Assembly: GCF_030020805.1 (NCBI RefSeq)
Contig: NZ_CP125098.1
Location: 2,460,001 to 2,524,000 of the forward strand
Reading direction: 5' to 3'
Length of the DNA: 64,000 bases
DNA from: Paenibacillus sp. RC67
GTDB lineage: Bacteria; Bacillota; Bacilli; Paenibacillales; NBRC-103111
The notes under the pieces are model-generated. The model was not told the origin of the DNA, searched no databases, and saw only the letters and a program-made list of their open reading frames with translations. The position numbers and the translations under genes are program-made. Shown piece by piece: positions 5,052-52,191 of the stretch (within the stretch, counting starts at the first letter, position 1; each line of letters starts with the position of its first letter).

Positions 5052-6440
5052 ATGATGTGTCAAGAGGTGATCGAACTCATGCAGAGATACCTCGATCAGG
5101 ATCTCGATAAATTAGAATATGAACAAATGCTGGGACATCTGCAGCACTGCTCGGAATGTACGGAGCTGTTCCAGCGTTTGGTATCTTTGTCTCAAGAACT
5201 AGAACAATTACCAAAGGTAACACCGGCTTACAGCTTGGTGGATGCTATTATGCCGAAGCTTCAGAGGATAGACGAAGGCTTCCCGGCAGTAGAATATCCG
5301 GCGGCGCCTGTGGTTACTTTTCCGGATAAGTATAAGGACGCACAAATCGCTGAAGAGGCGAAGGCACACGTCGAGCATGCAGCTGGATGGCGCAAAAAGA
5401 TGCGCGGACTTGTTTCAATGCGGATAGTTGGTGGTGTTGTTGCCGCCGGCTTGGTACTCGGATTTTTCGTGTTTGAGCAGCAGGACCAGAAAGGCAGCAT
5501 GAAGGATGCAGGGTCTATGTTGTTGTCCTCTACAGCATCACAAAGCAAAGCCGAGAACATGGCGAAGCAGGATACGGCACCAAGTGCTAGCAGCAAGAAA
5601 GCGGCTGAACCAACTGGTGCGGGAGGTACCTCGAATCAGCCGGCCGATCAAAAGGCAGCGATGGATACTTATCAGCCGGATTCCGCTGCGAAAGCACCCG
5701 CGCCTGCTCCTGCTCCAGCCCAGAGACAAGAAAGTAAGGCTCAAGCTAGCGCTGATGGAAACAAACCAGTGGCATCAACGGATATGCCTCAGAAGAAGAG
5801 TGCAGATGCGAGAACAGCAGAACCTTCCAAGGAACAGGTGCAGCAGCCTTCTACGGATAGTAGTACGGTCAATGATTCCAATACGTCGTCATCTTCGTCT
5901 ACTGAGCCGAAGTCGAAAGAGGCTCCTGTTAATGAGGAATTGGCTCCTCCGCCTGTAGATTCGACGGCTGGTGGAAGAGGATTATCGGCTAACAAAACGG
6001 GTGCACCGAATTCGGCCCAATCCTTTGCCAATCCAGACTCAGCATTGTCTGATAGTACTGGAGGCAGCGCTTCTTCGTTTGCAGCCAATCAGAATGAAAC
6101 TGCGACTGGAGATCAGCAGAATGGTGATAACGTTAATAAAGAGAAGTCAGGGGAAATGGGATTGAACCAACTGTACTCAGTGAGTTCAACCGGCAGTCCA
6201 AGTACATTAACATCCCAGAGTAAGGTCTATGTTGCTTCTATCAACGACAAGCGTCAAGTCGTTATTACCGACAATCAACAGAAGGTATTATTCACATCCA
6301 GTCATACCTGGACGGAGAAGGATAAAATCGAACTGGTTGAATGGACAGAGAGTCAACTGTTGACTTATCGGGTAACTAATGAATCGGGAACTATAACCTA
6401 TGTCATTAATGCAAAAGACAAAACGGAGTTAAAAAAATAA
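5052..6440 (+). CDS. Membrane-anchored zinc-finger anti-sigma factor with long extracytoplasmic tail
   Basis: A 462-residue protein. The N-terminal ~60 residues are a ZAS (zf-HC2) anti-sigma domain with H29-x3-C33-x2-C36 (HLQHCSEC). One membrane helix follows at about 123-141. Residues ~150-365 are a low-complexity segment rich in A, S, Q, K and P. The last ~90 residues look folded and beta-rich (VYVASINDKRQVVITDNQQKVLF). It should bind the ECF sigma factor encoded 98 bases upstream and sense a signal outside the membrane, perhaps through the C-terminal domain. ATG 5052 follows AGAAAGG at 11 bases; an in-frame TTG at 5028 is less likely. The tail is much longer than in minimal anti-sigma factors and may span the cell wall (inference). 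Confidence 0.87.
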   Translation: MMCQEVIELMQRYLDQDLDKLEYEQMLGHLQHCSECTELFQRLVSLSQELEQLPKVTPAYSLVDAIMPKLQRIDEGFPAVEYPAAPVVTFPDKYKDAQIAEEAKAHVEHAAGWRKKMRGLVSMRIVGGVVAAGLVLGFFVFEQQDQKGSMKDAGSMLLSSTASQSKAENMAKQDTAPSASSKKAAEPTGAGGTSNQPADQKAAMDTYQPDSAAKAPAPAPAPAQRQESKAQASADGNKPVASTDMPQKKSADARTAEPSKEQVQQPSTDSSTVNDSNTSSSSSTEPKSKEAPVNEELAPPPVDSTAGGRGLSANKTGAPNSAQSFANPDSALSDSTGGSASSFAANQNETATGDQQNGDNVNKEKSGEMGLNQLYSVSSTGSPSTLTSQSKVYVASINDKRQVVITDNQQKVLFTSSHTWTEKDKIELVEWTESQLLTYRVTNESGTITYVINAKDKTELKK

Positions 6441-6447
6441 ATTGTTT

Positions 6448-6480
6448 ACGCCGCGGCCAGTCACCAATCCGGCGCGGCGT
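6448..6480 (+). terminator. GC-rich hairpin after the anti-sigma gene
   Basis: ACGCCGCG (6448-6455) pairs with CGCGGCGT (6473-6480) eight bases after the stop codon. There is no T-run after it, so it may be only a weak terminator or a 3' end stabiliser. Confidence 0.45.
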
Positions 6481-6583
6481 AATATAATATGGTGTAGCGT
6501 CACTCTACGAGCGCGTCGTATGACCACCACGAGGAAGGTTTCTAGAGCTTTCCTCATAGTGTTTATATAGATGGGGTTTCGTG

Positions 6584-6630
6584 CAAAGGGATTATGTCCA
6601 AAACCTGCAGGTTTTGACGTAATCCCTTTG
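6584..6630. repeat. 47-bp near-perfect palindrome upstream of holA
   Basis: CAAAGGGATTA...AAAACC and GGTTTT...TAATCCCTTTG form a stem of about 21 bp around TGCA, with one mismatch and one bulged base. The sequence TTGTTGTTGC follows, so it could be a poor terminator. It ends 43 bases before the holA start. No second copy was seen in the window. Confidence 0.8.
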
Positions 6631-6673
6631 TTGTTGCTACAATGTCAAAAGAAGAAAGTAGGGGTGATCGGAG

Positions 6674-7693
6674 ATGGATTATAAATCCGCATTGAAACAA
6701 ATTCAGCAGGGGAAGTTTGCTCCTGTTTATGTGTGCTATGGTGCTGAATCGTACTTGATACATGCATTAATAGATAAGTTGACGGAGCGTCTTGTAGAAC
6801 CCGATCAACGGCCTTTCGCGGTGAACAAATATGACTTGTCAGAAACATCGCTTGATACCGTAATTGAAGAAGCGGAAACGCTGCCGTTTATGGTGCCTCG
6901 CAAGCTGGTTATTGCAACAAATGCTCTGTTTCTTACCGGTGCAAAGGAAAGTGCCAAGGTAGATCATAAGCCGGAACGATTAATCCAATACATGAAGACG
7001 CCAACTGATTTTTCCGTTGTCGTGCTGACAGTTGATGCGGACAAGCTCGATGAAAGAAAGAAGCTGGTCAAGACATTAAAGGAAGCGGATTGTCTGGTTT
7101 CCTGCGCTTCACTGTCTGCCGACGATTTATCGCATTGGGTGAAGCAGGAGGCTGACAAGGCAGGATTCACGTTCGCACCAGGAGTAGCAGAACAGTTCAT
7201 CCTGTATACCGGAACCAGCTTGCAGGCATTATCAAGTGAATTGGAAAAGTGTGCACTGTTTGTGGGTCGCGGGGGGATGCTTACGGAGGATGCTCTGGAG
7301 CAACTGGTCACGCGTTCCATAGAGCAGAATATTTTTATACTGATTGAGCATATTGTTCAGCTTCAATTAGAGAAGGCATTCACGATGCTGTCAGAGTTGA
7401 TTCGCAGAAAGGAAGAGCCGATTAAGATCATGGCTCTTATTGCTCGGCAATTCCGTATCATGTTTCAGGTGAAAGATCTTCAGCAGCAGGGATATTCTCA
7501 GCAGCAAATGGCCACCCAGCTTGGACTCCATCCTTATGCTGTAAAGATTGCCTCAGGTCAAAGCAACCGATTTGAATTAAAACAGCTCGCTAATATATTA
7601 AATCAATTGTCTGATTTGGATTACCAAATGAAGAGCGGGAAAATCGATAAAGTATTGGGGCTGGAGATGTTCCTTCTAAAGCTTATTGCTTAA
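6674..7693 (+). CDS. holA: DNA polymerase III subunit delta
   Basis: A 339-residue protein of the HolA/YqeN family, the clamp-loader wrench subunit that opens the DnaN sliding clamp and loads it on DNA. Family hallmarks are the N-terminus (ALKQIQQGKFAPVYVCYGAESYLI), the LPFMVPRKLVIA segment, and the C-terminal helical collar ending in KSGKIDKVLGLEMFLLKLIA. There is no functional Walker A site, as expected for delta. Start is ATG 6674 with GGAG/AGGGGTGATC upstream. It is followed convergently by rpsT, the conserved Bacillota order. Confidence 0.95.
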   Translation: MDYKSALKQIQQGKFAPVYVCYGAESYLIHALIDKLTERLVEPDQRPFAVNKYDLSETSLDTVIEEAETLPFMVPRKLVIATNALFLTGAKESAKVDHKPERLIQYMKTPTDFSVVVLTVDADKLDERKKLVKTLKEADCLVSCASLSADDLSHWVKQEADKAGFTFAPGVAEQFILYTGTSLQALSSELEKCALFVGRGGMLTEDALEQLVTRSIEQNIFILIEHIVQLQLEKAFTMLSELIRRKEEPIKIMALIARQFRIMFQVKDLQQQGYSQQQMATQLGLHPYAVKIASGQSNRFELKQLANILNQLSDLDYQMKSGKIDKVLGLEMFLLKLIA

Positions 7694-15016: not shown

Positions 15017-15047
15017 TTGACACAGACCTTCGGGTCTGTTATTTTTG
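15017..15047 (+). promoter_or_regulatory. Candidate heat-shock operon promoter overlapping a terminator hairpin
   Basis: TTGACA (15017-15022), a 17-base spacer and TATTTT (15040-15045) form a plausible sigma-A promoter just upstream of CIRCE. The spacer is occupied by the hairpin ACAGACC-TTCG-GGTCTGT (15022-15039) followed by TATTTTTG, which also looks like the terminator of the acetyltransferase gene. An alternative -10 is TATTAT at 15049-15054, which lacks a good -35. Confidence 0.5.
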
Positions 15048-15056
15048 TATTATGAT

Positions 15057-15083
15057 TTAGCACTCAACAGTTCGGAGTGCTAA
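15057..15083. promoter_or_regulatory. CIRCE operator (HrcA binding site)
   Basis: TTAGCACTC, nine bases, GAGTGCTAA: a perfect match to the CIRCE consensus. HrcA, encoded 82 bases downstream, represses from this site and is released when heat stress titrates the chaperonin. It places hrcA, the following chaperonin and probably grpE-dnaK-dnaJ under heat-shock control. Confidence 0.97.
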
Positions 15084-15164: not shown

Positions 15165-16190
15165 ATGTTGACCGAACGCCAACGACATATTTTGAGTGCT
15201 ATCGTAGATGATTATATTCGTTCAGCAGAGCCTGTAGGTTCCCGCAGTATATCCAAACGCGGAAATGTGGGATTCAGCCCTGCCACCATTCGTAACGAAA
15301 TGTCCGACTTGGAAGAGATGGGGTTCTTGGAACAGCCGCACACGTCCGCAGGGCGTATCCCATCACACAAAGGCTACCGTTATTATGTCGATCATCTTGT
15401 CACTTTCGGCAGTTTAGCGGAGCATGAGGTCGAGGCTCTTAAATCTTTTTTTTCAGAGAAAATGCAGGAGATGGAGCAAGTCATTCAGCACGTTGCAATG
15501 ATGTTGTCCAATCTCACAAACTATACATCCATTGTCATGGGACCGGAAATGTTCAGCACGACGCTGCGTCATTTGCAGATCGTGCCGTTGAATGAGCGTA
15601 CCGCTGTTGCCATTATCGTAACGAATACGGGGCATGTCGAGAACAAAACGGTAACGATTCCGGAAGGAATTCCTGTCTCAGAAATCGAGAAGTTCGTCAA
15701 TTTACTCAACGCCAGACTTCAGAATGTGCCGCTGCTTCATTTTAAATCCAAGCTGTTCAGCGAAATCGGCGAGGAGATGCGCAGCTACGTAAGCGGCTAT
15801 GAAGAACTGATGTCAATGCTCAATAACATCGTCGATCCGGACGAAGAAAATCGAATTTTCTTGGGTGGAACGACTAACATGCTGACGCAGCCAGAGTTTC
15901 AAGATATGGAGAAGGTTAAGAACATTCTTGATTTGCTCGCAGAGACGCCAATTCTTGCCAAGCTGATAACGGGAACGCCATCAGGCATACAAGTTAAGAT
16001 CGGCAGTGAGAATTCGGTAGCAGCAATCAACGATTGCAGTCTTATAACTGCCTCTTATTCGTTTGGCGGCAAGCATCTTGGAACCGTCGGTATTCTGGGA
16101 CCCACACGGATGGATTACGGTAAAGTGATTAATTTGCTGGACCACTTGTCAAAAGATATGACGTTGATGCTGGAGCGATGGTATAAATGA
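15165..16190 (+). CDS. hrcA: Heat-inducible transcriptional repressor HrcA
   Basis: A 341-residue repressor of class I heat-shock genes. The N-terminal winged helix MLTERQRHILSAIVDDYI..AEPVGSRSI..ATIRNEMSDLEEMGFLEQPHTSAGR is diagnostic. The central and C-terminal domains (PEFQDMEKVKNILDLL, GSENSVAAINDCSLITASY, GTVGILGPTRMDYGKVI) are complete. ATG 15165 lies 6 bases after GGGAGGG. Its TGA overlaps the ATG of the next gene (ATGA), so the two are probably translationally coupled. Confidence 0.97.
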   Translation: MLTERQRHILSAIVDDYIRSAEPVGSRSISKRGNVGFSPATIRNEMSDLEEMGFLEQPHTSAGRIPSHKGYRYYVDHLVTFGSLAEHEVEALKSFFSEKMQEMEQVIQHVAMMLSNLTNYTSIVMGPEMFSTTLRHLQIVPLNERTAVAIIVTNTGHVENKTVTIPEGIPVSEIEKFVNLLNARLQNVPLLHFKSKLFSEIGEEMRSYVSGYEELMSMLNNIVDPDEENRIFLGGTTNMLTQPEFQDMEKVKNILDLLAETPILAKLITGTPSGIQVKIGSENSVAAINDCSLITASYSFGGKHLGTVGILGPTRMDYGKVINLLDHLSKDMTLMLERWYK

Positions 16191-17728
16191 GCCAAATCAA
16201 GCCTGTCACGCATGAAAGCGATGATACGTATGCAACACTGTTGAATAATGCCGGAGCTATCCGTGCAATTTGTTCGGCTGTTGAAGGTACTCTCGGGCCT
16301 AAGGGTCTGGACACGATGCTGGTCGGCGGACAGGGTGAAGTCATTATTACGAATGACGGTGTGACCATTTTGGAAAAAATGGACGTTACCCATCCAGCTG
16401 CACGCCTGCTTATCCAAGTAGCCCGCTCGCAGCAGCAGCAGGTAGGCGACGGAACAACTACAGCTACCGTATTGGCGGGAGCTCTGGTAGCTGAAGGGGT
16501 AGCTCAGGTTACACGCGGAGTTCCTGTAGCCAAAGTCGTAAGGGGGATTCAGCAGGGGGTTGCTGCGGCTCTGGCTTCGCTTGCCAAGCGAAGCCGGCGT
16601 ATTGAAGGCTTAAAAGATCCGCTTCTATATCGTATAGGATATATAGCGGGGCGTGAGCATTCCGATTTGGCGGAGCTAGTACTCGAAGGAGCTCGGCGAT
16701 TAGGAGTGCATAAACTGCAGGAGGAAAACTTCCGATTTGCAGATGTGGTTATTTCGCACAGCCGTGCTGTAAGTGAAGTGTGGCCCGGACTTCTGATTCA
16801 GAAGAAGCCTATCAACTCGCAGCTGGATTTTCCGCCAGATGCAGCTTCTGTGCTTGTTTTTCAGGATGCTTTCGAACCGGAGACGATCGATGAGGAAGCA
16901 CTCATGACTGAGGCAGGCTTTCAGAAGCAAATGCAGCTGAAGGAACAGTTCCGCAAGTCGCTCGAGAAGCTCGTCGAGCTGCAAGTGGGGCTGATCATTG
17001 CGGATCGAGGAGTGAATGCAGAGGCGGAGCAGTTTTGTACCGATCACGGAATCATGGTCGTACAGCGAGTGCCGCGCTCTGATCTCCGACTTGTCTGCGA
17101 ATACACAGGAGCTCGCCCTATTCGCCGCAGCGGGCTTCGCAAGCCTTCCTCGGAGCTCGCAGGTTATCTTGGCTTCGCCGGACGAGTTTCATACGACGAG
17201 CGTCTAGAGTGCGTACGCATGGCGGAAGGCAAAGGCCGGACGCAGGTGACCATCGTCGTTGGCGCAAGCACGAGCGAGGTTGTTGGCGAGCGGCTGCGCA
17301 TCGCAAAAGATGCAGCCTCGGCTGTACAGGCTGCTCTGCGCGGCGGGTGCTTGCCCGGTGGAGGTGCAGCCGAGATGGCTGCCGCCTACGAGCTGGATCG
17401 TCTGAGAGAGACGATCCAGGGCATGGAGGGCTTCGGCGTAGCCGCCGTTGCACAGGCGCTGCGCAAGCCACTTGCGCAAATCGTCGTCAACGCGGGCTAC
17501 AACCCGCTTGAGAAGGTGGAAGAAGTGAAGGCCGCGCAAATTAATGCGGGCTCTGATGCGCTTGGTATCGATTGTGATACCGGCGCGGTAATCGACATGC
17601 TGGAGCAGGGCGTTGTCGACCCTGCTCACGTGAAGCTGCATGCCTTGCAGGCAGCAGGCGAGGTGGCAGCCGCCGTACTTCGCATTCACACAGTGATTAA
17701 GATGAAGCAGCCTCGTACGGAGGAATAA
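16187..17728 (+). CDS. Group III (archaeal-type, thermosome-like) chaperonin
   Basis: A 513-residue chaperonin of the TCP-1/thermosome type rather than GroEL. Visible motifs: LGPKG (36-40) followed by LDTMLV where thermosomes have MDKMLV; NDGVTIL (56-62); KMDVTHPAARLL; GDGTTTA (87-93); the ATPase aspartate D375 in IAKDAAS; PGGGA (390-394); and a C-terminal DTGAVIDMLEQGVVDPAHVK like the thermosome end. Residues ~235-265 (EEALMTEAGFQKQMQLKEQFRKSL in segments) fit the helical protrusion that forms a built-in lid, so no GroES should be needed. It is shorter than thermosomes (~545) and lacks a Gly/Met tail. It overlaps hrcA by 4 bp, precedes grpE and is under CIRCE. Archaeal-like chaperonins in bacterial dnaK operons are known, first from Carboxydothermus. 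GC rises in its 3' half. Confidence 0.92.
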   Translation: MSQIKPVTHESDDTYATLLNNAGAIRAICSAVEGTLGPKGLDTMLVGGQGEVIITNDGVTILEKMDVTHPAARLLIQVARSQQQQVGDGTTTATVLAGALVAEGVAQVTRGVPVAKVVRGIQQGVAAALASLAKRSRRIEGLKDPLLYRIGYIAGREHSDLAELVLEGARRLGVHKLQEENFRFADVVISHSRAVSEVWPGLLIQKKPINSQLDFPPDAASVLVFQDAFEPETIDEEALMTEAGFQKQMQLKEQFRKSLEKLVELQVGLIIADRGVNAEAEQFCTDHGIMVVQRVPRSDLRLVCEYTGARPIRRSGLRKPSSELAGYLGFAGRVSYDERLECVRMAEGKGRTQVTIVVGASTSEVVGERLRIAKDAASAVQAALRGGCLPGGGAAEMAAAYELDRLRETIQGMEGFGVAAVAQALRKPLAQIVVNAGYNPLEKVEEVKAAQINAGSDALGIDCDTGAVIDMLEQGVVDPAHVKLHALQAAGEVAAAVLRIHTVIKMKQPRTEE

Positions 17729-17849
17729 CGCGCTTTTATCCGGTCACCCTCAGTTCGGTCAACTATGCTTGCTTACATCTGGGATGGTCTGGTTAAAATA
17801 AATAAATAGGAACATTACTATCGGATTCGGATCAAGGAGGTGACAGATA

Positions 17850-18422
17850 TTGAGTACGGAACAAAAAAACCAATTCGAAAACCAAGCGGACAACGGGCCA
17901 GAGGTTGACGCTACATATAACGAAGATGCCGATACTGCAGCAAACCAACAGCAGGAAACGGCAAGCGAGCAGGATGGTGAGCTGGAGCAGCTTCGTCAGC
18001 TAGCAGAAGAGCATTACCAGCGCTCCATTCGCGCACAAGCGGATTTCGATAACTTCAGAAGACGTACGCGTCAAGAAAAAGAGGAATTCGCTAAGTATGC
18101 GTCCTTGAAGGTGGTTGAGCAGCTTCTCCCGGTAGTGGATAACTTCGAGAGAGCTTTGGCCGCTAGTAAAGACAGCAATGATTACGATGCGCTGTTGAAG
18201 GGCGTCGAGATGATTTTCCGCCAATTGGATCAAGCTCTTGCCAATGAGGGCTTGAAAGCAATGGATGCTGTAGGGCAACCGTTTAATCCAGAGTTCCATC
18301 AAGCGATCATGCAAGTGGAGTCTGATGAGTACGAGGAAGGCATCGTTGTGGAAGAAGTGCAAAAAGGTTACATGCTCAAAGATAAAGTGCTGCGTCCTGC
18401 AATGGTGAAAGTAAGCTCCTAG
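17850..18422 (+). CDS. grpE: Nucleotide exchange factor GrpE
   Basis: A 190-residue co-chaperone that releases ADP from DnaK. An acidic, disordered N-terminus (about 1-45) is followed by the long helix (LRQLAEEHYQRSIRAQADFDNFRRRTRQEKEEFAKYA). The conserved C-terminal beta domain has GQPFNPEFHQAIMQVES and VEEVQKGYMLKDKVLRPAMVKVS. TTG 17850 is the start, 6 bases after AAGGAGGTGA. The 121-base gap after the chaperonin gene shows no convincing terminator, so one operon is likely. Confidence 0.96.
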   Translation: MSTEQKNQFENQADNGPEVDATYNEDADTAANQQQETASEQDGELEQLRQLAEEHYQRSIRAQADFDNFRRRTRQEKEEFAKYASLKVVEQLLPVVDNFERALAASKDSNDYDALLKGVEMIFRQLDQALANEGLKAMDAVGQPFNPEFHQAIMQVESDEYEEGIVVEEVQKGYMLKDKVLRPAMVKVSS

Positions 18423-18514: not shown

Positions 18515-20362
<1,848 letters not shown>

Positions 20363-20569: not shown

Positions 20570-21685
20570 ATGAGCAAACGCGATTTTTACGAGGTACTTG
20601 GGGTAGGCAAGGAAGCTTCGCAAGATGAAATTAAAAAGGCTTATCGCCAAATGGCCCGGCAATTCCATCCAGACGTTAACAAAGCTCCAGATGCTGAACA
20701 AAAGTTTAAGGAAGCGAAGGAAGCTTATGACGTTCTAAGTGATGACCAGAAAAAAGCGCAATATGACCGATTTGGTCACGTCGATCCGAATCAGGGAATG
20801 GGCGGCGCCGGCGGTGCCGATTTTGGTGGCTTTGGCGATTTGTTCGATATGTTTTTTGGTGGCAACGGTCAACGTCGCAACCCGAATGCACCTCAAAGAG
20901 GCAACGATTTGCAGTACACGCTAACTATCGAATTTAAAGAAGCGGTGTTTGGCAAAGAAACGGACATTCATATTCCGCGCACGGAAACTTGCGAGACCTG
21001 TCATGGTAATGGTGCGAAACCTGGAACGAAGCCTGAAACTTGTACCGTGTGTAAAGGCAGCGGTCAGCAGGAAGTCATTCAGAATACGGCTTTTGGCCGG
21101 ATCGTCAATCGCCGGGTATGTTCGGCCTGCGGAGGCCAGGGCGTAACGATCAAGGAAAAATGCGGCACTTGTCACGGATCCGGAAAAGTGAAAAAACAGC
21201 GCACTATTCATCTTAATATTCCTGCGGGCGTTGATGACGGAGCTCAGCTTCGTGTTTCCGGTGAAGGCGAATCGGGTACCCGCGGAGGTCCAGCCGGTGA
21301 TTTATACGTTGTCATTCGCGTGAAGTCGCATGATTTCTTCGAGCGTGAAGGCGACGATATTTATTGCGAAATCCCTCTGACCTTTGCGCAAGCTGCGCTT
21401 GGTGACGAGATTGAGATTCCTACACTAACTGAGAAGGTTAAGCTGAAAATTCCGGCCGGGACACAAACCGATACGTACTTCCGCTTGAAAGGCAAAGGCG
21501 TACCTCGTTTAAGAGGTTACGGTCAAGGGGATCAGCACGTGAAGGTCGTTGTCGTCACGCCGACGAATATGAATGACGAGCAAAAAGAACTGCTGCGAGA
21601 ATTTTCCCGCCTCAGCGGAGAAAACACTCATGAACAGCAGCAATCCATCTTTGAGCGCATGAAAAAAGCGTTTTTAGGGGACTAA
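20570..21685 (+). CDS. dnaJ: Molecular chaperone DnaJ (Hsp40)
   Basis: A 371-residue class A J-protein. The J domain (about 1-70) contains the HPD triad in RQFHPDVNK and stimulates DnaK ATPase. A G/F-rich linker is [13 protein letters not shown]. Four C-x2-C-x-G-x-G zinc motifs are [24 protein letters not shown] and CGTCHGSG. The C-terminal substrate domains follow ([19 protein letters not shown]). The start has GGGAGTGG upstream. A terminator follows directly. Confidence 0.97.
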
Positions 21686-49418: not shown

Positions 49419-50186
49419 GTGAAGCTGGATAATAAGGACAATACATTCACGGTCAAAACGAAGATAACGCCTTGGGTAAAAATTCCGGATATTTATATAG
49501 GTAAAATCGATTATTCGATCAACGGAGCCATCGTTGAATCCCAGACGAGTCCTCCATTCGGTATCGAGCTGAATGCAGGTCAGGTACCCGAAGGTTCCAT
49601 TATCCAGTTAACGGTCTACAACAGAAATGGGACTAAAGTAATTTCCAAATCATTTGCAATGTCTTCCCAGGTTTCCGTTGTTCTGGATGGCAAGCCGCAG
49701 GTCTATGAACAGCCGCCTGTTATTAGGGACGGGAATACTTTGACGCCATTACGAGCAATCTTCGAAGCGATGGGCGCAACCGTTTCATGGGATGAACGCA
49801 CGCAAACGGCGACCGGGCGCAAAGGGAACACGACCGTATCCTTGAAAATCGGTGATCGTCAGGCATTGAAAAATGGACAGCCTATCCAGTTGGAAGCAGC
49901 TGCTCAGTTAATCAATGGGCATACGATGGCTCCTGCACGGTTCATCGGTGAGGCTTTCGGAGGAGAGCTGAAGTGGGATGGAACCACGAGAACTGTTACG
50001 ATCAAATCTGCAAATGGAAAGACCGCCTTTAACTCGGCTGCCTCGGAACAGGGGCAGCTTCAGGAACAGCAAAAACCCGATTCTCAAGAAGAATCGGGTT
50101 GGCTTTCCAAGCTTGCTTTAACCGCGGGTCTTATAATTCAATCCGCCATTTCATTTATAGTTCATTTCGTATCCTCTATACTCTAG
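49419..50186 (+). CDS. Copper amine oxidase N-terminal (stalk) domain protein (3' part of a frameshifted gene)
   Basis: 255 residues from a GTG that is only the first start codon in this frame. The region opens with an Ig-like beta domain (KIDYSINGAIVESQTSPPFGIELNAG). Two copies of the Cu_amine_oxidN1/stalk repeat follow: VVLDGKPQVYEQPPVIRDGNTLTPLRAIFEAMGATVSWD and LKNGQPIQLEAAAQLINGHTMAPARFIGEAFGGELKWD. A hydrophobic C-terminal helix ends it. These repeats are common at the ends of secreted Paenibacillus proteins. The frame stays open upstream into the GH26-like gene, there is no ribosome site before the GTG, and no signal peptide. I read it as the rest of the preceding gene. Its last 11 bases overlap the convergent oxidoreductase gene. 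Confidence 0.75.
   Translation: MKLDNKDNTFTVKTKITPWVKIPDIYIGKIDYSINGAIVESQTSPPFGIELNAGQVPEGSIIQLTVYNRNGTKVISKSFAMSSQVSVVLDGKPQVYEQPPVIRDGNTLTPLRAIFEAMGATVSWDERTQTATGRKGNTTVSLKIGDRQALKNGQPIQLEAAAQLINGHTMAPARFIGEAFGGELKWDGTTRTVTIKSANGKTAFNSAASEQGQLQEQQKPDSQEESGWLSKLALTAGLIIQSAISFIVHFVSSIL
50071..50100 (-). terminator. Minus-strand terminator inside the stalk-domain coding region
   Basis: On the minus strand AACCCGATTC pairs with GAATCGGGTT around a 7-base loop and runs into TTTTTGC. It lies 76 bases past the stop of the TetR-oxidoreductase frame, so it should end that transcript although it lies in the sense strand of the opposing gene. Confidence 0.75.
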
Positions 50187-52131
50187 CCGGTACTTTAACA
50201 TCCTCGATAATCGCTTTCGCAACTAGGCGGGCACTTGAAAATGCTCTTTCCGCCAACTCACCTTTACCGACACAACCATCTCCGCAGAAATAAAACGGCA
50301 CATGTTCCAAACGTGTAGGCAGCAGCTCGTTCGTGACGATATTCTTCACACTCGATACCATAGCTTTCTTGGAAACGCGCTTCACAGCGGTTTCATCCCG
50401 CCAGCCTGGATAGTAGTGATCGAACAAGTCTTCCATTTGCTTCGTTTTCTTATCCAAATATTGTTTGCGCTCTTGCTCGTCCGCGAAGCTATCGCTCAGG
50501 TACGCAATACCTTGCAGCAGCTGACCGCCTTCAGGCACCAGCGTATGATCTGTTGCCGAAACGTCGCTGATAAACATCTTATTGTCCATATCGCTGATAT
50601 AGGAGAACGGACGTGCCACGACACGATTAAGCCCGATATCGTAAACCATAACCTCGGTAGCTGTATTATTTTCATAAGGAGCTAGGAACGGTTCCCATGG
50701 CGTGCCTCTGAGCAGCTTGCAAGTTTGCTGAACCGGCATTGCAAAAATGACGCGGTCAAAGCTTTCCTCGCGATTTTTTGTTTTTAGTTGGTACTTACGG
50801 TCCGCGTATTGGATAGATTCAACGCCTTCTTGGAGCGCTAGCTCCCAACGGCTGGAAATTTCAATTTTTTGACGCAGTTGATTTGTAATAACTGCCCAGC
50901 TTCCCAATACGTAGTTAACCGGACGGCTGGATAGGAACAAATTATGATAATATTCGCTGATAACAGGACCCGGTACCTTGCGTGCTTCCTCTGGAGTAAT
51001 AAAGAAATTGGAGCAGACCAGGTGCTCCCAAAGCTCCTTAACGTCCTCGTCCGCATCGGAATGAGCGAGATAGTCACCAAGCGTCTCATAGTTTTTTACG
51101 TTATGGATGTGTGCAATAATAGCTGTGATTTCTCCAACGAAACGTACTTTTTGCATAGTGTTTAACAATTCGGTCCGCATCAGGTTGACGAAGTCAAGTG
51201 GAGCTGGTGTCAGCTGATCGTGTTTGGCGTACATAACTTTACGTTTGTCCACCTGTTTGGAGCTGAAGGAAAGACCTAGCTCACGTTCCATGGTCGATAT
51301 TTCGTGACGATCAATCCCGTAGATGGCATGAGCGCCGTAGTTAAGCGTAAAGCCTGCTTTCTCGTAAGTAAAAGCGCGACCGCCCAATTGCGGGCTTCTT
51401 TCAAAAAGTACGCCCTCCACACCCTGCTGCTCCGACAAATAAGCGGCCGCCGTCAAACCGGACAATCCGCCTCCAATAATTGCGATTCTCATCTTTTTTT
51501 CCTCCTTAGCGCTATGCGCAAGCCAACTCGCATTGAGTCCGACTTGCCTCGTTTCTACCGAGATGGATGATTCTTGTTGTTCCAAACGTAGACCTGACCA
51601 AACCCATGCCAGGTTGCTGCGCATTAAACCAGGTAAGTCCACTTCCTCTTGAGAGCACCACATCCACAATGTACCTCTGTATGCGGTAATCAGCAGCCTA
51701 ACTTTATTCGGCTCCGGGAGCCAGTGAAGCAGCCGATCGAACAGTAACTGAAATTGTTCATCTTCAATTTTTTTGACGGACTCGTTTTGTAGAGATAGGG
51801 CAATTAAACTGCGTACCAGACGGGGATAAGCCTGGATATTGGACGCTAAGTCTAAAAAGAGTCTGTTGATATGTCCTTCTAAGGATTGGACTTGGGATGG
51901 AGTTTTTACGGCCCACTCGCTGATCGTTTGGATTTGCTTGCGGAATATCTCCCGTAAAATTTCATCCTTTCCTTTGAAATAATGATAAAAGGTTCCTTTT
52001 GACGTGTTCGTAGCGGCGATGATGTCGTCAACGGAAACTTGTTCGTAACCACGCTCTATAAACAAGCGAAGGGCAACCTCAATCATATATTCCCGTTTTT
52101 TTCTCGTTGCCGATCGCATCAACCCATTCAT
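50176..52131 (-). CDS. TetR regulator fused in frame to an FAD-dependent oxidoreductase
   Basis: A 651-codon frame. Residues 1-~200 are a TetR/AcrR repressor: helix-turn-helix in EQVSVDDIIAATNTSKGTFYHYFKGKDEIL and a helical ligand domain. From codon 214 (ATG 51492) begins a 438-residue flavoprotein of the amine oxidase/phytoene desaturase type: the FAD dinucleotide-binding site MRIAIIGGGLSGLTAAAYL, LFERSPQLGGRAFTYE, and the C-terminal PFYFCGDGCVGKGELAERAFSSA. The flavoprotein has its own perfect AAGGAGG 9 bases before ATG 51492, and stops (TAG, TAA) lie in another frame just before it. So two genes seem joined by a lost stop or an indel. ATG 52131 follows GAGGTG; the earlier ATG 52164 lies inside the -10 box. 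Confidence 0.8.
   Translation of the reverse strand: MNGLMRSATRKKREYMIEVALRLFIERGYEQVSVDDIIAATNTSKGTFYHYFKGKDEILREIFRKQIQTISEWAVKTPSQVQSLEGHINRLFLDLASNIQAYPRLVRSLIALSLQNESVKKIEDEQFQLLFDRLLHWLPEPNKVRLLITAYRGTLWMWCSQEEVDLPGLMRSNLAWVWSGLRLEQQESSISVETRQVGLNASWLAHSAKEEKKMRIAIIGGGLSGLTAAAYLSEQQGVEGVLFERSPQLGGRAFTYEKAGFTLNYGAHAIYGIDRHEISTMERELGLSFSSKQVDKRKVMYAKHDQLTPAPLDFVNLMRTELLNTMQKVRFVGEITAIIAHIHNVKNYETLGDYLAHSDADEDVKELWEHLVCSNFFITPEEARKVPGPVISEYYHNLFLSSRPVNYVLGSWAVITNQLRQKIEISSRWELALQEGVESIQYADRKYQLKTKNREESFDRVIFAMPVQQTCKLLRGTPWEPFLAPYENNTATEVMVYDIGLNRVVARPFSYISDMDNKMFISDVSATDHTLVPEGGQLLQGIAYLSDSFADEQERKQYLDKKTKQMEDLFDHYYPGWRDETAVKRVSKKAMVSSVKNIVTNELLPTRLEHVPFYFCGDGCVGKGELAERAFSSARLVAKAIIEDVKVPARV
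51490..51508 (-). promoter_or_regulatory. Internal ribosome binding site and start of the oxidoreductase
   Basis: Minus strand: AAGGAGGAAAAAAAG followed by ATG (51492-51490). A strong Shine-Dalgarno at normal spacing inside a longer open frame implies that the oxidoreductase is also, or mainly, made as a separate protein starting here. Confidence 0.75.
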
Positions 52132-52162
52132 TCCGACCCACCTCACAAGTCTTTTCGGCTCC

Positions 52163-52191
52163 ATTATACCTAATATTAGACTTCGAGTCTA
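52163..52191 (-). promoter_or_regulatory. TetR gene promoter with palindromic operator
   Basis: Minus strand: -35 TAGACT (52191-52186), 17-base spacer, perfect -10 TATAAT (52168-52163). The perfect palindrome TAGACT-TCG-AGTCTA (52177-52191) covers the -35 region, the usual place for autorepression by a TetR protein. Confidence 0.65.

Follow-up and report, generated by a model that had tools for sequence, protein, structure and literature searches.

Archaeal-like chaperonins of Group III have already been described from the dnaK operons of some bacteria. A review that cites Techtmann and Robb (2010) places the type III gene of Firmicutes in the dnaK operon, and has the repressor HrcA regulating both type I and type III chaperonin genes (PMC5904260). 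An et al. (2017) also located Group III genes in the dnaK operon, with a single exception, and described the structure and ATPase activity of Ch-CPN from Carboxydothermus hydrogenoformans (PMC5635000). When expressed in Escherichia coli, a Group III chaperonin conferred heat protection (PMC5220055), and DnaK has been proposed to hand over clients to these chaperonins because the operon is shared (PMC5220055, PMC5635000). The gene analyzed here (cpn, 16187-17728) comes from Paenibacillus sp. RC67 and lies in a stretch of 64,000 nucleotides (contig NZ_CP125098.1, positions 2,460,001 to 2,524,000 of the forward strand), referred to below as the window. Judged by sequence comparison, its product is an ordinary, inherited member of the known Group III family. 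The best explanation of the locus as a whole, and very probably the correct one, is that it encodes a lidded, ATP-driven folding chamber co-induced with DnaK, DnaJ, and GrpE upon derepression of HrcA. A preliminary description, made from the sequence alone, had already recognized an archaeal-type (Group III) chaperonin inside an HrcA operon and stated that such operons exist in other bacteria, which the literature above bears out.

The 513-residue protein matches the Pfam family Cpn60_TCP1 (PF00118, E 4e-106). Among the NCBIfam models, the thermosome model TIGR02339 (271 bits, cut-off 671) outscores the GroEL model TIGR02348 (148 bits, cut-off 582), but both scores stay far under their cut-offs, as expected of a protein that belongs neither to Group I nor to Group II. 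The best solved chains by sequence are 9rwq (ACIII, 603 bits) and 5x9u (Ch-CPN, 426 bits), with the thermosomes at about 197. In a maximum-likelihood tree built with IQ-TREE from 70 rows, with named Group II rows from archaea and Group I rows from bacteria among them, Groups I, II, and III each form one side of a branch, and the window protein falls in Group III (support 98/99), among the sequences of Paenibacillaceae and apart from the GroEL clade. GroEL identity is ruled out by this tree, by the TIGR02348 score, and by the presence of a lid, and thermosome identity by the tree, by the TIGR02339 score, and by the absence of the nucleotide-sensing loop. That region counts 22 residues, versus 28 in Group II, and lacks the Group II insertion of 6-7 residues.

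All of the motifs named in the preliminary description were located in the protein: GPKGLDTMLV (37-46), NDGVTIL (56-62), HPAA (69-72), GDGTTT (87-92), and PGGGA (390-394). The alignment further indicates that the catalytic and nucleotide-binding residues N56, D57, D88, R156, and D375 are conserved. D57 and D375 form the catalytic aspartate pair (Asp56 and Asp373 of Ch-CPN), and R156 is the equivalent of Arg155, the gamma-phosphate arginine, which is an arginine in 43 of the 44 aligned Group III rows. The inter-ring ball-and-socket contact likewise keeps its residues V112, M413, and L441.

The helical protrusion that had been suspected around residues 235-265 is real. In the alignment, the lid segment spans 37 residues, fewer than the 41 of Group II but more than the 17 of GroEL. 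The AlphaFold2 model (predicted local distance difference test, pLDDT, 87; predicted template-modelling score, pTM, 0.83) retains it as two helices, at residues 236-239 and 242-264. The best VIA matches of this model are 5x9v (Z 45.1, 492 residues, root-mean-square deviation (rmsd) 4.0), 9rwq (Z 43.3, 341 residues, rmsd 1.3), and 5x9u (Z 41.2). Four lid-tip residues of Ch-CPN, Leu237, Phe243, Tyr246, and Phe253, have been reported as strictly conserved in Group III (PMC5635000). Three of them are kept in the window protein (L239, F245, and F255), but the equivalent of Tyr246 is Gln248 (window 16928-16930). At this position, the 44 aligned rows hold tyrosine in 29 cases, glutamine in 10, histidine in four, and phenylalanine in one; judged by this alignment, the published strict conservation of Tyr246 fails in the wider Group III sample.

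The operon (Table 1) had likewise been described correctly in all structural details. Open reading frame (ORF) coordinates and a scan for the controlling inverted repeat of chaperone expression (CIRCE) confirm the perfect operator at its head, the overlap of hrcA with cpn, and the presence of grpE, dnaK, and dnaJ downstream. The stop codon of hrcA (16188-16190) overlaps the cpn ATG at 16187, the shared ATGA being 16187-16190. The CIRCE is the single perfect one in the window, and shuffled windows yield 0.04 matches per window even when up to three mismatches are allowed. The number of promoter-like sites in the consensus scan is at chance level, and the main argument for the candidate promoter upstream of the operon is its position beside the CIRCE. 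This site ends at 15045, and the CIRCE would therefore sit at the expected transcription start. Consensus and motif scans of the plus strand between cpn and grpE detected neither a terminator-like site nor a CIRCE, and the only promoter-like site in this gap (17772-17799) is at chance level. An Rfam search of the window returned zero matches.

Table 1. Features of the hrcA-dnaK operon in the window, and loci of the groE operator in other genomes
Feature	Position	Strand	Basis
Promoter-like site, TTGACA-17-TATTTT, extended TG	15017..15045	+	Consensus scan, 10/12 matches; ends 11 bases 5' of the CIRCE
Perfect CIRCE operator (predicted HrcA binding site)	15057..15083	+	0 mismatches
hrcA, heat-shock repressor, 341 aa	15165..16190	+	PF01628 7.6e-69, PF03444 1.4e-6
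cpn, Group III chaperonin gene, 513 aa	16187..17728	+	PF00118 4e-106; tree 98/99; relatives 9rwq, 5x9u
Helical protrusion forming the built-in lid (about residues 235-265 of the protein)	16889..16981	+	Lid-segment length and model helices
grpE, nucleotide exchange factor	17850..18422	+	TTG start after AAGGAGGTGA; sequence and conserved order
dnaK (Hsp70)	18521..20362	+	Sequence and conserved order
dnaJ (Hsp40)	20570..21685	+	Sequence and conserved order
Main groE CIRCE in other genomes	L247-L251, L253-L261		One-mismatch CIRCE

The Group III gene is present in all 13 genomes of the genus and in 91 of the 104 of the family. In evenly drawn samples, which are no census, it was found in 58 of 151 genomes of the order, 53 of 300 of the class, and 127 of 398 of the phylum. 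Throughout the phylum it occupies one locus and tracks the family. Among the 66 loci holding the gene, the order CIRCE-hrcA-cpn-grpE-dnaK is whole in 64. A perfect CIRCE and hrcA stand upstream in 65, the remaining one (L066) being cut by the contig start, and grpE and dnaK follow downstream in 65, the true exception being L069. Three loci (L092, L107, and L108) hold truncated chaperonin copies. The ATGA overlap is confined to lineages near the window, with short gaps between hrcA and cpn elsewhere. As far as this distribution can tell, the position of the gene in the hrcA-dnaK operon is a matter of old vertical inheritance and not an oddity. In the distant genome G733, a dnaJ-like gene comes directly after CIRCE, hrcA, and cpn (L069 2073-5983, coordinates oriented with cpn). 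Outside Bacillota, a Group III gene whose product is 45% identical occurs in a metagenome-assembled genome (MAG) of Armatimonadota, with grpE behind it but no dnaK (L133 373-2509). The contig ends just upstream of this copy, which may reflect a transfer or a binning error.

A recent horizontal transfer of a thermosome gene from archaea into this operon would have only the thermosome-like motifs in its favor. It can practically be dismissed, given that the archaeal Group II clade (support 100/99) is separate from that of Group III and that the latter is spread over the phylum at its single, family-tracking locus. The gene could also be a dispensable relic, held in the family by inertia and in the course of being lost. 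In a tree of HrcA, GrpE, and DnaK, well-supported branches require five or more changes in its presence, and parsimony counts eight; because the gene is ancestral, these changes are best read as repeated losses. They would suit a relic, as would the copy of genome G015, truncated at residue 279. The truncated copy of G091, counted as a 'minus' row in the tree, is weak evidence of decay: the genome assembly reaches 84% completeness, and HrcA, too, is matched there only from residue 57 onward. The 13 copies of the genus, however, are full-length, free of internal stops, and 84-100% identical, and the catalytic residues are intact; the gene therefore appears to be under constraint in the genus, and a relic is highly unlikely.

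Other alternatives concern HrcA, a known chaperonin client, as work on GroE from other bacteria has established (PMC8533110). The preliminary description had suggested that this chaperonin may take the place of GroEL in titrating HrcA. In such a case HrcA would be folded or kept active mainly by the Group III protein and the operon would be a self-contained feedback loop, an arrangement to which both the client status of HrcA and the adjacency of the two genes, overlapping in the genus and kept across the phylum, lend some appeal. However, the search for groES and groEL in the same genome found both (L010 2731-3012 and L010 3137-4765), behind a CIRCE with one mismatch, and GroEL was found in 79 of the 80 Group III genomes tested. 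Moreover, 12 genomes of the family that lack the Group III gene retain hrcA, a perfect CIRCE, and grpE-dnaK, and the divergence of HrcA relative to GrpE shows no shift after the loss (mean residual -0.007, standard deviation 0.035, n = 11 genomes), although a negative drawn from so few lineages, and from sequence only, carries little weight. Among the positions of HrcA, only two weak columns (163 and 201) change with the loss of the chaperonin, and they are confounded by ancestry. With GroEL present, and with hrcA and its perfect CIRCE kept after the losses, the replacement of GroEL is unsupported, and a closed loop of this kind is very improbable. A genome relying on Group III without GroEL was also sought among the 80. 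Only G763 had no GroEL match, and it was rejected as a GroEL-free genome, the missing match being put down to its assembly (about 300 contigs; G823, from the same genus, has two copies). A milder version, in which the chaperonin is an additional, non-exclusive partner, both GroEL and Group III stimulate HrcA, and the operon senses both loads, is unlikely but deserves some consideration. It would agree with the conserved adjacency and the shared regulation; against it, HrcA carries no sign of adaptation to the loss of the gene (again a weak negative from few lineages), and co-regulation with DnaK accounts equally well for the gene order.

The preferred reading is a folding chamber induced together with the DnaK system. 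Of its parts, the family, the conserved catalytic residues, the lid, the predicted fold, the gene order, the operator, and the coexistence with GroEL are directly supported here. By analogy with its relatives, the subunits would assemble into a homo-hexadecamer of two stacked octameric rings, which would capture non-native proteins. On ATP binding, the apical domains would turn inward and bring the protein's own helical lids together over each chamber without GroES; hydrolysis would reopen it. The genes hrcA, cpn, grpE, dnaK, and dnaJ would share one transcript, from a single promoter presumably repressed by HrcA at the CIRCE. Heat or misfolding would inactivate HrcA, and the repressor, the chaperonin, and DnaK-DnaJ-GrpE would then rise together, with groESL and htpG expected to follow under the same stress. 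The clients would probably be partly folded proteins, handed over by DnaK-DnaJ or shared with them, and the chaperonin would act alongside GroEL-GroES, not replacing it. Some observations weigh against this reading. It is gene order, and gene order only, that suggests the link to DnaK, and the chaperonin of L069 stands beside dnaJ in a locus without grpE and dnaK, as that of the Armatimonadota MAG stands beside grpE without dnaK. In addition, with Gln248 in place of Tyr246, the lid tip may differ from that of Ch-CPN.

The regulon of HrcA shows two further features in this lineage. A third CIRCE of the genome lies directly 5' of htpG, the gene for Hsp90 (L011 3353-3379, which is C1 6987352-6987378), and the same arrangement occurs in all 14 genomes of the family and order that were checked (L228-L232, L234, L236, L237, L239, and L241-L245). 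To our knowledge, htpG is not under HrcA control in Bacillus subtilis. The CIRCE of the main groES-groEL operon (L010 2660-2686) departs from the consensus at one base, the innermost of an arm, both here and in all 14 of the other genomes. The CIRCE of the hrcA operon, on the other hand, is perfect at every readable locus. This difference in sequence suggests a weaker control of groE by HrcA, with or without a Group III gene. It is conceivable, though doubtful, that HrcA has a second, non-exclusive activator in the Group III chaperonin; the operon would then read two chaperonin loads and adjust the repression of itself, groESL, and htpG to them. Behind the intact groEL there is also a broken second copy (L010 about 5650-6948, C1 about 674150-675450), which lacks the first 54 codons, has internal deletions, and adjoins genes for a PIN-domain protein and a phage-type integrase.

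Elsewhere in the window, a single ORF of 662 residues on the minus strand (50176-52164) combines a TetR DNA-binding domain (28-73) with a flavin amine-oxidoreductase domain (234-653), and is, by its predicted domains, a regulator fused to an enzyme, which is unusual.

The kind of protein, its place in the operon, and the control of both chaperonin types by HrcA in Firmicutes are already described. What is new here is modest: the breadth of the gene in the lineage, its repeated losses, the variable lid-tip residue, and the two features of the HrcA regulon (the htpG and groE CIRCEs). Possession of an inherited Group III chaperonin, a type known best from a thermophile, is the rule in a large family of Bacillota, where it coexists with GroEL. 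The repeated losses within one family, with the operon otherwise intact, can serve as a natural experiment, and work in a tractable host could show what these chaperonins fold and whether DnaK feeds them.

Among the known systems, Ch-CPN (5x9u, 5x9v) shares with the window protein its clade, the catalytic Asp/Asp/Arg set, the built-in lid, the lack of the Group II-type nucleotide-sensing insertion, the ball-and-socket residues, and the location in a dnaK operon. It differs in sequence (43% identity over the structural alignment), in its branch within Group III, in its lid-tip tyrosine, and in its host, the lineage of the window being Paenibacillaceae and not an extreme thermophile. ACIII (9rwq) is the top match by sequence and superposes closely over the equatorial and intermediate domains, but it is a reconstructed ancestral protein whose apical domain is not modelled in the PDB entry. 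The archaeal thermosomes have the same fold, a built-in lid, and the catalytic aspartates; they form a separate clade, however, at about 30% identity; their lid is about four residues longer, and their nucleotide-sensing region holds the insertion of 6-7 residues. GroEL, also encoded in this genome, has in common the chaperonin fold and the GDGTTT motif, but belongs to a clade of its own, has no lid segment, works with GroES as a partner, and is encoded in its own CIRCE-controlled operon (L010 2731-4765).
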